Virus record (IMG/VR): IMGVR_UViG_3300042475_001829
Location: 1 to 38,047 of that record
DNA from: a virus
DNA length: 38,047 nucleotides
Strand: one strand, 5' to 3'
Below the pieces are notes generated by a model, which made no database searches, was not told the DNA's origin, and saw only the letters and a program-made list of their open reading frames with translations. Numbering within the stretch: the first letter of the stretch is position 1; each line of letters begins with the position of its first letter. Both the position numbers and the translations under genes were made by a program. Shown here piece by piece: positions 8,707-27,080 of the stretch.

Positions 8707-9819
8707 ATGAGTGACACCACCACGATCAGAGACGCCCTCGAGGCGGCAGTGCCCGTCGACGAGCCCGTAGAAACTTCAGCACCAGAGCCCGTCAGCGAGC
8801 CGGCCAGCGAGCCCGCCAGCGAGCCCGCCGCCTCGGCGCCGGAGGCTCCCAAAAGCGACGGCCGCGACGAGAAGGGACGGTTCAAGCCCAAGGACGCGCC
8901 CGTGGCGCCCGAGACGACGGAGAAAGCCGCCGCAGAGCCCGCGCAGGGCATTCAGCCCGGCCCAAAGGCCGAGCCCAAGTCAGTTCCAAAGGACCGCGCT
9001 CCGGCCTCCTGGCGGCCCGACGTGCGTGAGCACTGGGCGCAGTTGCCCGAGCAGGTGAGGGCGGAGGTTGCCCGGCGCGAGCAGGAAGTGCAGCGCACGC
9101 TGCAGGATACGGCCGAGGCGCGCAAGTTCTCGGATCAGCTCAACCAAGTGATTCGGCCCTACGAAATGTTCATCAAGGCCGAGAACAGCAACCCGCTGCA
9201 GGCGATCGACAATCTGATGGCGACCGCGGCCAAGCTGCGCACGGGCACCGCGCCCGAGCTCGCGCAGATGGTGGCTGGCATGGTCAAGCAGTTTGGCGTT
9301 GGCCGGTTCGGGCAGACGTTCATCGAGCAGCTCGACTCGGCGCTGGCGGGCGAAGTGCCGCGCGTCGACCCGGTGCAGAACCAAATGCAGCAGGTACTGC
9401 AGCAGCAGCTCGCGCCGGTGCAGCAGTTCATGTCGCAGTTCCAGCAGGCGCAGCTCGCCCAGCAGCAGCAGGCCCAGCAGGCGGCGGCGGGCGAGGTGCA
9501 GCAGTTCCTGCAACAGGCAGAGTTCGGCGAGGACGTCCGCGAGGACATGGCGGACATCATGGAGATCGCCCAGCGCCGCGGGCGAGAGCTGACGCTGCAG
9601 GACGCCTACCGCCAGGCGTGCTTGTCCAATCCGCGCGTGCGCACGGTGCTCGAGGCGCGCGCCAAGGCAAAGGGCGCCCAGCAGCAGACGGGCGCCGCGC
9701 AAAGGGCTCGAGCGGCGGCGGTCAGCGTGTCGGGCGCGCCCGCGCTCGGTGCGCCGAAGAGCGAGCCGTCCGATATTCGCTCTGCGATTGAAGCGGCTAT
9801 TGCGTCAAACGCACGATGA
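8707..9819 (+). CDS. Scaffolding protein (370 aa)
   Basis: A 370-residue protein that should act as the internal core guiding capsid assembly and then leave the head. The N-terminal 90 residues are disordered and Pro/Ala/Glu/Ser-rich, with a short tandem repeat (SEPASEPASEPAAS) and a GRDEKGRFKPKD linker. The centre contains ASWRPDVREHWAQLPEQVRAE, typical of phage scaffolds. Residues about 215-270 are extremely Gln-rich and helical (QQQLAPVQQFMSQFQQAQLA). The C-terminus is Ala-rich with DIRSAIEAAIASNAR, as expected for a coat-binding helix. It sits directly before the capsid gene, the standard position. The MCP promoter begins inside its last codons. Confidence 0.88.
   Translation: MSDTTTIRDALEAAVPVDEPVETSAPEPVSEPASEPASEPAASAPEAPKSDGRDEKGRFKPKDAPVAPETTEKAAAEPAQGIQPGPKAEPKSVPKDRAPASWRPDVREHWAQLPEQVRAEVARREQEVQRTLQDTAEARKFSDQLNQVIRPYEMFIKAENSNPLQAIDNLMATAAKLRTGTAPELAQMVAGMVKQFGVGRFGQTFIEQLDSALAGEVPRVDPVQNQMQQVLQQQLAPVQQFMSQFQQAQLAQQQQAQQAAAGEVQQFLQQAEFGEDVREDMADIMEIAQRRGRELTLQDAYRQACLSNPRVRTVLEARAKAKGAQQQTGAAQRARAAAVSVSGAPALGAPKSEPSDIRSAIEAAIASNAR
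9799..9815. promoter_or_regulatory. Operator-like dyad on the capsid promoter
   Basis: The bases read ATTGCGT-CAA-ACGCACG. The inner TGCGT and ACGCA are perfect inverted arms around CAA, the same centre and inner arms (TTGCG-N-CAA-N-CGCA) as the longer dyad at 36485-36501. It covers the -35 of the capsid promoter, so a bound protein would block or recruit polymerase there. Assignment as an operator is inference. Confidence 0.4.
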
Positions 9820-9828
9820 TGCTATAAA
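9800..9828 (+). promoter_or_regulatory. Promoter of the major capsid gene
   Basis: TTGCGT (9800-9805), a 17-bp spacer ending in TGC, then TATAAA (9823-9828). The extended -10 TGCTATAAA matches the other phage promoters described here. It overlaps the end of the scaffold gene and predicts transcription from about 9836, giving the capsid mRNA a leader of about 180 nt. The separate promoter would lift capsid expression above the surrounding structural genes. Confidence 0.6.
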
Positions 9829-9835
9829 CACATCG

Positions 9836-10017
9836 GGGAAGGTGCAGCCTAAAAACTGTACTTTCTCCGGTGTGCCAAAGCACCGACAGCCACCGAAGCT
9901 CTAGGAGCGCGAAAGCGCCCACCTACGACATACCGGACTGAACAGGTTCGCGTAGGCCACACGAAAACTGGTGGGGCGTAAGCCCTTGTCATTTTTTCTT
10001 GTGGGAGTTTCATCACA
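9836..10017 (+). ncRNA. Structured 5' leader of the capsid gene
   Basis: About 180 nt without a credible reading frame, in a genome where genes usually abut. It folds by eye into a row of hairpins: CGGTG/CACCG (9868-9885); GCGC-GAAA-GCGC (9907-9918, flanked by GG/CC), a GNRA tetraloop; CCTACG/CGTAGG (9922-9956); CCAC/GTGG (9957-9974); and GGGC-GTAA-GCCC (9974-9985), a second GNRA tetraloop that shares one base with the previous stem. The Shine-Dalgarno GGGAG (10003-10007) follows after a T-rich linker. It could control translation or stability of capsid mRNA, or be a processed RNA. I cannot match it to a named RNA family. Confidence 0.55.
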
Positions 10018-11001
10018 ATGGCTTTTGCAAACTCGTCCATTTCGGACATCGTCGCGACTACGATTCAGTCGCGCACCCGGCAGATCGCCGACAACGTCAC
10101 CAAGAACAACGCTCTTCTCGCCCGCCTCTCGCAACGCGGCAACGTGAAGACGTTCTCCGGTGGCTCGACCATCCTCCAGGAGCTGAGCTTTGCCGAGAAC
10201 GGCAACGCCGGCTTCTACAGTGGCTACGACCTGCTGCCGGTTGCGGCTCAGGACGTCATCAGCGCCGCCGAGTTCCAGATCAAGCAGCTCGCCTGCCCGG
10301 TCGTGATCTCAGGCCTCGAGCAGCTGCAGAACAGCGGCCGCGAGGCGTTCATCGACCTGCTCGAATCTCGCATCAACGTGGCCGAAGCCACGATGGCGAA
10401 CAAGCTCGCCGCGTCGATCTACAGCGACGGCACCGGCTCGGGCGGTAAGGAAGTCACCGGCCTCAACGCCGCCGTGCCCTCCAACCCGACCACCGGCACC
10501 TACGGTGGCATCGACCGCGCCACCTGGACGTTCTGGCAGTCGAAGTTGTACGACTTCTCGACCGCTGGCGTGACGCCGCCCCCGACTGGTGCTCAGATGC
10601 AGACCGGCCTCAACACGCTGTGGGCTTCGCTCGTGCGTGGTTCGGATCGGCCCGACCTCATCGTGCTCGATTCGGCCTACTGGGGCATCTACACCGCGTC
10701 GCTGCAGGCCAACCAGCGCTTCACCGACCCCTCGGTCGGCAGCCTCGGTTTCCCGTCGCTCAAGTTCATGGACGCCGACGTGGTCCTGGACGGCGGCATC
10801 GGTGGGTTCTGCCCCGCGAACACGGGCTTCATGCTCAACACGAAGTACCTGTTCATGCGTCCGCACCGGGACCGCAACATGGTGAGTCTGTCGCCGAACA
10901 AGCGCTACGCGATCAATCAGGACGCCGAAGTCCAGATCCTCGCGTGGGCCGGCAACCTGACTTGCTCAGGCGCGCAGTTCCAGGGCCGCATCCAGAACTA
11001 A
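10018..11001 (+). CDS. Major capsid protein (327 aa)
   Basis: A 327-residue protein, the main shell subunit. It lies directly after the scaffold and begins MAFANSSISDIVATTIQSRT. It has features of HK97-fold coats: an N-terminal helical segment (TRQIADNVTKNNALLARLS), a glycine-rich loop region (GNVKTFSGGSTILQELSF), a spine-like helix (NVAEATMANKLAASIYSDG) and an A-domain (LIVLDSAYWGIYTASLQ). It ends with ILAWAGNLTCSGAQFQGRIQ. No protease gene is nearby and no cleaved delta domain is apparent. Start: ATG with GGGAG 10 bases upstream. It is flanked by its own promoter and leader upstream and hairpins with a T-run downstream. Confidence 0.88.
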   Translation: MAFANSSISDIVATTIQSRTRQIADNVTKNNALLARLSQRGNVKTFSGGSTILQELSFAENGNAGFYSGYDLLPVAAQDVISAAEFQIKQLACPVVISGLEQLQNSGREAFIDLLESRINVAEATMANKLAASIYSDGTGSGGKEVTGLNAAVPSNPTTGTYGGIDRATWTFWQSKLYDFSTAGVTPPPTGAQMQTGLNTLWASLVRGSDRPDLIVLDSAYWGIYTASLQANQRFTDPSVGSLGFPSLKFMDADVVLDGGIGGFCPANTGFMLNTKYLFMRPHRDRNMVSLSPNKRYAINQDAEVQILAWAGNLTCSGAQFQGRIQN

Positions 11002-11015
11002 TCGGCCCCGTGGTG

Positions 11016-11072
11016 GGGGTCACCCTTGCCTTGATGGGTTTGGGTGATCCCCTAACTCATCAAGGTTTTTTT
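11016..11072 (+). terminator. Terminator/attenuator with two mutually exclusive stems
   Basis: Stem B, CCTTGATG (11029-11036) with CATCAAGG (11058-11065), is followed at once by seven T's (11066-11072): a rho-independent terminator form. Stem A, GGGGTCACCC (11016-11025) with GGGTGATCCCC (11042-11052, one bulged T), interleaves with stem B. The two cannot form as simple hairpins together; they either compete or make an H-type pseudoknot. The Shine-Dalgarno AGGAG of the next gene starts right after the T-run. The element probably sets how much transcription passes from the capsid gene to the next. Confidence 0.6.
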
Positions 11073-11604: not shown

Positions 11605-11641
11605 GGGACGGTGCGGGGTGATTCCTGCGCCGTCCCTTTTT
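11605..11641 (+). terminator. Strong rho-independent terminator
   Basis: GGGACGG (11605-11611) pairs perfectly with CCGTCCC (11630-11636). The stem extends inward through wobble and GC pairs (about 13 bp in all) and is followed by TTTTT (11637-11641). It closes the capsid plus decoration cassette. Downstream tail genes must be reached by read-through, antitermination or another promoter that I do not see. Confidence 0.8.
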
Positions 11642-25881: not shown

Positions 25882-25964
25882 CTTGAGGAAAAGAGGGGTA
25901 GCGGGGTCCACACAAGTCGCTGAGAATTCAGCAAATTGTGGATTTCACAACGGGCTGAGGCATT

Positions 25965-26009
<45 letters not shown>

Positions 26010-26087: not shown

Positions 26088-27080
26088 TCAGTGCAGGCGG
26101 GTAGCCAAACGCTCCGCCGCATTGACCAAGTGATCGACCGGTAGGTGGACGTAGTTGTCGATCATGGCCGGGGTCTTCCACCCGCCCATGTCCTGCAACG
26201 TCTTCCGGTCGACCCCGTCCATCGCCGCCCAACTGGCGAAAGTGTGGCGGATGTCATGGAACCGGAACCCGGCCGGGAGCCCCGCGCGCTTGGTGTACCG
26301 GCGCCACTGGTGATGGCACGGCGGCTCGACCGGGAACACCCGCGCCTCGGTGCGCGGCTGCTGCTCGAGCAACGCCTTCGCGGCCGAGTTCACCGGGCAG
26401 ACGATCAGATTGCCCGCCTTGGTGTCGATCGGCTGCACCCAGCACAGGCCCCGCTCAAGATCCACCCGATCCCAAGTGAGCCCAAACACGTTCGACTTGC
26501 GCAGGCCGGTCATGAACGCAAACCCAACCGCCGCGCGTAAGCCCGGCGGCAGCACCTCGAGCAGCGCCTTCGCCTGGGCGGGGGTGGCGATCAGCATCTT
26601 GCTCGCGTCGCGCTTGTCGCCGTAGGTGCGGAATGCCGGCACCTGCTCGATCCACTCCCACTCCTTGCACGCGGTCGAGAGCACCGAGCGCAGGGTGATG
26701 ACGTAGTTGTTCTTGGTTCCATTGCTCGCCGGGGTACCCTTGCGCGTGATGAGCTGCTCGATCTGCTCAGCCGCCCAGGCGCGGCTAATGTCGGTGAGCG
26801 CCATCCCCTCGGCGCGTGCGCACCAGAACGCGAGGTGGTGCGTGTAGTCGCGGATCGCGCTCGCGTTCGCGTTTTCTTTGAGCCACTTCTCGGCGGCCTC
26901 GGTGAGCGAGCGCGGTTGCTTCTCGCCGAGTTTGCTCTGCCGCCAGAGTTGGGCCTTCAGTTGGTCGTGCAACTCCTGCGCTGCTTTGCGATCAGCAGTC
27001 TGAGCAGACTGCTTGAATCGCCGCCCGCCGGGGAGCGCGATGTCGATGTAAAAGGTCTTGCCTCGCTTGAAGATGGACAT
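26088..27080 (-). CDS. int: Tyrosine integrase (330 aa)
   Basis: A site-specific recombinase that joins attP to the host tRNA site. The N-terminal 50 residues are an arm-binding-like domain (GKTFYIDIALPGGRRFKQ), followed by a core-binding SAM-like domain. The catalytic residues are all present: R194 (TGLRKSN), K221, H275 and R278 (HDIRHTFASW), W301 (in the H/W position) and nucleophile Y310 (MIDNYVHL). The gene lies next to attP and reads toward it. AGGAG is 11 bases before the ATG. Its first 124 bases overlap the excisionase-like gene in another frame. It is the last gene of the leftward early operon. Confidence 0.95.
   Translation of the reverse strand: MSIFKRGKTFYIDIALPGGRRFKQSAQTADRKAAQELHDQLKAQLWRQSKLGEKQPRSLTEAAEKWLKENANASAIRDYTHHLAFWCARAEGMALTDISRAWAAEQIEQLITRKGTPASNGTKNNYVITLRSVLSTACKEWEWIEQVPAFRTYGDKRDASKMLIATPAQAKALLEVLPPGLRAAVGFAFMTGLRKSNVFGLTWDRVDLERGLCWVQPIDTKAGNLIVCPVNSAAKALLEQQPRTEARVFPVEPPCHHQWRRYTKRAGLPAGFRFHDIRHTFASWAAMDGVDRKTLQDMGGWKTPAMIDNYVHLPVDHLVNAAERLATRLH

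Follow-up and report, generated by a model that had tools for sequence, protein, structure and literature searches.

The leaders of ribosomal-protein operons and other autogenously controlled transcripts place a structured RNA at the 5′ end of the message, tie its fold to the initiation region and serve one abundant structural protein. In riboswitch platforms that sequester the Shine-Dalgarno (SD) sequence, a conserved core is combined with an anti-SD strand that varies jointly with the SD region, and introns are known that occur with or without an open reading frame (ORF) for a homing endonuclease. How the capsid protein of tailed phages comes to be made in very large amounts and at the right time is, to our knowledge, poorly understood. 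The structured candidate RNAs manA and wcaG are borne by phages and lie near genes that they may regulate, mostly genes related to metabolism, in cyanophages and marine DNA (PMC2864571).

Here we analysed a 38,047-nt viral sequence (IMG/VR record IMGVR_UViG_3300042475_001829, positions 1 to 38,047; hereafter the window) in which the gene for the major capsid protein (MCP; 10018–11001; PHROG 9953 'major head protein', E = 2e-112, with capsid relatives in phages Mx8 and BUCT555) is preceded by a structured leader that we termed class A. The promoter, the leader, the capsid gene and the interleaved hairpins behind it all lie on the plus strand. A gap of 198 nt separates the capsid start (10018) from the stop (9817–9819) of the upstream ORF 8707–9819, which gave no family match and which we take, from its position alone, to be the scaffold-place gene. 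The leader (9829–10020) folds at −81.8 kcal/mol compared with −56.2 ± 4.0 kcal/mol in dinucleotide shuffles (z = −6.4; 0 of 200 as low), which bears out a preliminary description of a structured RNA in the intergenic gap ahead of the capsid gene.

The leader resembles those of ribosomal-protein operons in being structured and 5′, in folding with the initiation region and in serving a single abundant structural protein, and differs from them in preceding a phage capsid gene and in having no Rfam sequence match. With SD-sequestering riboswitches it shares a conserved core and an anti-SD strand that co-varies with the SD region, but it has no metabolite gene context and no Rfam match. Unlike manA and wcaG, neither of which it matches in Rfam, it stands before a capsid gene. 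The site recalls introns in that an endonuclease ORF is present or absent at one spot, whereas the RNA is a 5′ leader with no Rfam group I or II match, and homology between class A and the ORF is unsupported. We consider it probable that the class A leader controls MCP translation by SD sequestration and represents a new family of cis-acting phage RNAs.

The leader opens with P1, a 19-bp hairpin (9829–9874; 9829–9847 with 9856–9874) found in the computed fold and in relatives. Both its sequence and its length differ widely among phages, the sequence almost completely, and pairing is maintained: across 67 leaders, the six outermost bases of the 3′ strand give 402 positions, with 310 Watson-Crick pairs, 44 G-U pairs and 48 unpaired. 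The strand CAGCCACCG (9887–9895) is invariant in all aligned class A leaders, and the CAGCCACC strand is likewise invariant across class A. Within the latter, GCC (9889–9891) may pair with a near-invariant GGC (9955–9957) and form, together with the SD helix, a candidate pseudoknot; 96.1% of these cells are paired, with one G-U and no two-sided change, so that the pairing, being nearly invariant, is unproven by covariation. The preliminary description had seen a row of hairpins in the gap. Hairpins are present, but they are not a mere row, because the anti-SD strand GAAGCUC (9895–9901) pairs with GAGUUUC (10005–10011) and encloses the others.

Enclosed by this helix, P2 (9903–9924) consists of an outer AGG/CCU stem (9903–9905 with 9922–9924), an invariant internal loop (A9906 opposite CCA, 9919–9921), an inner GCGC/GCGC stem (9907–9910 with 9915–9918) and a GAAA tetraloop (9911–9914). 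An outer pair (columns 46-90) is A-U in 47, G-C in 9, C-G in 2 and broken in 3 of 61 leaders, the inner pairs occur among relatives as A-U, C-G, U-A and G-C, and in lineage L373 P2 reads CUGAG-A-GC GAAA GC-CCA-CUCAG. An initial model had placed CCUACG/CGUAGG in P3 and let P2 end on CCC; the AGG/CCU outer P2 took its place because CCU covaries better with the AGG on its 5′ side, where 3 of 61 pairings are broken, than with that on its 3′ side, where 17 of 61 are. P3 (9925–9927 with 9951–9953) and P4 (CGGAC/GUUCG, 9934–9938 with 9946–9950) follow at 9925–9953 and contain an invariant CGGACUG. Two-sided changes are found at all three P3 pairs; P4 is weakly supported because its variation is on one side only (G-C/G-U). 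P5 (9958–10003) joins a CCACA/UGUGG-type stem (9958–9961 with 10000–10003) to GAAAA/UUUUC (9963–9967 with 9994–9998) and shows two-sided changes at all six modelled pairs, most relatives having CAUCUGA/UCAGAUG. In the P6 hairpin (9973–9986; tetraloop GUAA, 9978–9981) all four pairs covary and 94.8% of cells are paired.

Both GNRA tetraloops that had been described are present, that of P6 being kept as a GNRA cap in 38 of 60 relatives and that of P2 in only about 6 of 60. The invariance of many unpaired bases makes the compact tertiary fold suggested with them plausible. Docking of the GNRA loops is unsupported, and one of the two is not conserved. Three other candidates were rejected, the first two by reading: a CCACC-GGUGG pairing beside P6 (many relatives have GGCG there, and CCACC is invariant), CsrA/RsmA sites (the GGA motifs lie within stems) and a conserved leader peptide (an ATG in P1 of some relatives is unconserved).

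To assess conservation of the fold, all class A leaders were aligned with a covariance model, R1, and the revised structure was scored on 61 leaders. Cells of modelled pairs were paired in 88.5% of cases compared with 74.9% in shuffles, two-sided changes occurred at 26 of 35 pairs compared with 19.7 in shuffles, and the covariation score was 0.327 compared with 0.119 in shuffles and 0.034–0.071 when the structure was slid. The shuffle controls leave the relatedness among leaders in place. Because the alignment was fitted to an earlier and much the same structure, these figures lean towards the model; the slid controls and the A-U/G-C/C-G outer pair of P2, which was absent from the earlier model, argue against the fit accounting for all of the covariation. 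The fold of class A is thus conserved by covariation above shuffled and slid controls, and the compensatory changes that the preliminary description had proposed to look for in the stems of homologous leaders are present. The leader core is 97.3% identical between pairs whose capsid genes share 42% identity at four-fold sites, a value to be read as an effect size and not as an independent test because the core was itself picked from conserved columns.

The SD sequence GGAG (10004–10007) and its spacer (to 10017) have an unpaired probability near 0 in the computed fold, as read from locus L002, whose sequence is identical to the window. Across 59 leaders, the mean unpaired probability of the SD was 0.076 compared with 0.308 when the upstream part was shuffled, and it was below 0.2 in 50 of them; by computation, the SD is hidden in the leader more than by chance, as we would require of a translation-control leader. 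The SD helix shows two-sided changes at all eight pairs; 72.5% of its cells are paired, some rows being misplaced by the alignment, and the joint changes can be followed by eye from GAAGCUC/GAGUUUC in the window to AAAUGCUCC/GGAGCAUUU (L062), AUGACUC/GAGUCAU (L045), GAUGAG/CUCAUC (L373) and AAUGCUCC/GGAGUAUU. In a free-duplex test, SD strands paired with their own partners at −9.88 kcal/mol and with the partners of other phages at −9.25 kcal/mol, a difference that lay beyond all 50 shuffles and is only slight because GGAG/CUCC is shared among phages. This conserved SD-sequestering helix supports the earlier suggestion that the leader may tune capsid translation; for its being cut out as a separate RNA, also suggested, no evidence of excision was found.

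In the mechanism that we propose, a capsid transcription unit driven by its own promoter would begin with the leader, which would fold into P1, P2, P3/P4 and P5/P6. The anti-SD strand would then pair with the SD and its spacer, closing the fold, and capsid translation would be off or slow until it is opened. We infer that in the cell translation is repressed and that some agent lifts or imposes this repression. Because the RNA is tied only to the capsid gene and its core is invariant, we favour, tentatively and at less than even confidence, putative autogenous control, in which the capsid or scaffold protein would bind the invariant core and so match the amounts of capsid and scaffold. If so, the leader would play a part in tailed phages comparable to that of the coat-protein operator in RNA phages.

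The promoter that had been placed before the leader is partly upheld: a −10-like box stands directly before P1 in 56 of 60 relatives, with TG just upstream in 54 of these 56, but a strict sigma-70 promoter scan did not call the site in the window (9800–9828). There, a −35-like TTGCGT (9800–9805), weaker than the −10, is followed by a 17-nt spacer and an extended −10, TG-C-TATAAA (9820–9828), and the whole overlaps the end of the upstream scaffold-position gene. The seventh base after the box is a purine in 45 of the 56 relatives, and a transcription start at about 9835 is predicted from sequence. RNA starting there would lack the outermost 5′-strand bases of P1, and GGUGUGCCAAAGCACC would instead form P1b, a GUGC/GCAC hairpin (9872–9883; 9872–9875 with 9880–9883) that is conserved in sequence, excludes the outer P1 pairs and is seen in the computed fold when the transcript begins at 9835. 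Read-through mRNA from upstream would form the full P1. A start-dependent choice between P1b and full P1 is thus a working hypothesis drawn from the modelled folds.

A search of IMG/VR, whose contigs are redundant and partial, by MCP similarity gave at least 80 loci, 74 of them with enough upstream sequence. The same RNA, recognised by CAGCCACCG and alignable throughout, stands before the MCP gene in 56 of the 74 among the matches listed, which had been chosen by MCP similarity alone. A pattern scan independent of MCP found at least 119 stretches, 115 of which were followed by an MCP gene within about 60–80 nt; the other 4, away from MCP genes, had no covariance-model score and were put down to chance. 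Among bacterial genomes there was one true copy (L211), before a capsid gene on a Brevundimonas metagenome-assembled contig, and 24 of 25 pattern matches were due to chance; scans of 385 and 369 genomes from two classes, the second run without a positive control, gave no further copy (1 of 754 overall). Because the matches directly precede MCP genes and the bacterial copy also lies at a capsid locus, the class A leader is a phage RNA tied exclusively to one gene.

Among the 118 non-redundant MCP relatives listed, 59 have a class A leader, 4 a divergent one (L331, L354, L357 and L366), 16 a leader of class B and 6 an HNH gene, with 22 others, 6 without a leader and 5 cut off. A second covariance model, R2, scored L354 and L331, which were outside its training set (E = 0.0017 and 0.0057, both before MCP), and also L366, which belonged to that set. 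Different leaders with CCAUUCAAGCGG- and CUAUUCACGCGG-like hairpins, in two to three copies each, precede the MCP genes of L383, L325 and L358, and a GAACC...GGGCCAUC element recurs in the otherwise different leaders of L382, L387, L368, L374, L331 and L357.

No tie to a known RNA family had been found from the sequence, and the Rfam covariance-model search agrees. Over the whole window, Rfam 15 gave only a marginal tRNA match away from the leader; the leader at E ≤ 10 gave two sub-threshold chance matches only, and 16 relatives with various leaders gave no match. A likeness to twister-sister, HEARO or group I introns had no Rfam support. The open-access literature yielded no description of the leader; large surveys of structured RNAs (2017; phages) could include the motif. 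Given that dozens of related phages carry it ahead of their capsid gene and that it has no Rfam match, the RNA is probably a previously undescribed cis-acting RNA family and a new element controlling the amount of capsid.

In loci L046, L012, L013, L019, L025, L026 and L390–L393, an ORF for an HNH endonuclease occupies the place of the leader. On an MCP tree built by maximum likelihood, HNH-type loci require at least five changes, within groups to which class A loci also belong; the MCP proteins of L046 (HNH) and L050 (class A) are identical, and those of some other leader-less, HNH-bearing close relatives are 82–87% identical. Absence of the gap from close relatives, which the preliminary description had counted against a functional leader, is thus found in part, in those that have an HNH ORF at this place. 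Because some close relatives have the endonuclease gene instead, the leader would be useful and not indispensable; judged from these sequences, it is dispensable, and nature has in effect carried out deletion experiments in the HNH-bearing loci. In some MCP relatives the gap before the gene is only 16–26 nt. The HNH ORFs begin behind the same TATAAT-like box as the leader, and several of the replacements close with ATGGAGTAA directly ahead of the capsid start, so that translational coupling might take over from the leader, which fits a modulating and not an essential role. A 71-kb contig holds both L050 and the HNH-type L390 and seems to combine two related genomes, or alleles, under one record. 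The DNA identity of the two loci is 98% from the MCP start on and 75% upstream, and this jump from the scaffold side to the capsid side suggests that the leader is a recombination junction between modules. A hairpin within the HNH ORF reads UACGCCGAAGCGCGGCGUA and, with a paired change, UACGCUGAGGCCCAGCGUA in L046.

These loci bear on an alternative that we regard as unlikely, namely that the leader is an ORF-less remnant of an HNH homing-endonuclease element, kept since its RNA ends control capsid translation. On at least five occasions an HNH ORF has come to lie exactly where the leader does and behind the same promoter, and some HNH ORFs start with GGTGTGC..AAGCACCC, resembling the 5′ part of class A. 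Class B leaders (L029, L033, L034, L027, L283, L291 and others; 255–334 nt before MCP) are homologous at the DNA level (alignment z up to 20) to the HNH gene in its 3′ half, with broken reading frames. Homology of class A itself to HNH DNA is not supported, however: pairwise z did not exceed 2.4, and an nhmmer search with the class A profile found no HNH genes above shuffles. It is similarly improbable that a single mobile element exists in two states, as the capsid leader RNAs and as the HNH genes found at this spot. If it did, the RNA ends would bring control of capsid translation, a homing gene could land harmlessly before the most highly expressed phage gene, and the element could survive later loss of the ORF as a purely regulatory RNA.

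Leader-mediated control of MCP translation also has to be weighed against a role in making the message. A terminator-like hairpin follows the capsid gene in 53 of 58 class A relatives, which would give a separate capsid mRNA, and the −10-like box with P1 right behind it is conserved. The leader might therefore mainly strengthen and stabilise this mRNA through its own promoter and a 5′ stem-loop that counters 5′-end-dependent decay, with the SD pairing a by-product and the ribosome simply unwinding the fold. We consider this reading doubtful, as it leaves unexplained both the invariant unpaired bases of the mid-leader and an SD pairing beyond chance.

Those invariant unpaired segments, together with the variable SD helix, could also be taken as the aptamer core and expression platform of a riboswitch for a small molecule or ion. 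This is very unlikely: the RNA is linked to a structural gene only, in a non-metabolic context, and the single copy among the 754 sampled bacterial genomes of two classes is itself at a capsid locus. Least probable of all is a transcription attenuator in which P6 and a U-run (9993–9998) form an intrinsic terminator, for although terminator-like sites are listed at 9969–9991, 5 such sites in the scanned region compare with 3.0 ± 1.8 expected, many aligned relatives have, by reading, no U-run after P6, and the P5 pairing there is conserved.

On the translation-control reading, the leader would form part of a concrete control unit, in which a dedicated promoter precedes a conserved leader concealing the SD and an interleaved-hairpin terminator follows the gene. 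At 11015–11072, two interleaved hairpins, S1 (11015–11025 with 11042–11052) and S2 (11029–11038 with 11056–11065), are followed by U7, and the region is predicted to be a terminator with a competing stem. Such a pair occurs in 40 of 58 class A relatives and in some others, compared with 0.3% in shuffles. In L047, L057, L032, L291 and other relatives, the hairpins have 8–13 bp, loops of a few nt and a U-run after the second, and their sequences differ and are always complementary. They are probably a mutually exclusive antiterminator and terminator that set capsid versus downstream expression.

A strong terminator-like hairpin (11605–11636; 14 pairs, 10 of them G-C) follows the gene next to the capsid gene. 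Elsewhere in the window, the marginal Rfam tRNA match (25892–26006; 31 bits, ARAGORN silent) adjoins an ORF on the minus strand (26088–27080) that is integrase-like as judged from its sequence alone, and is possibly a tRNA-derived attachment site.
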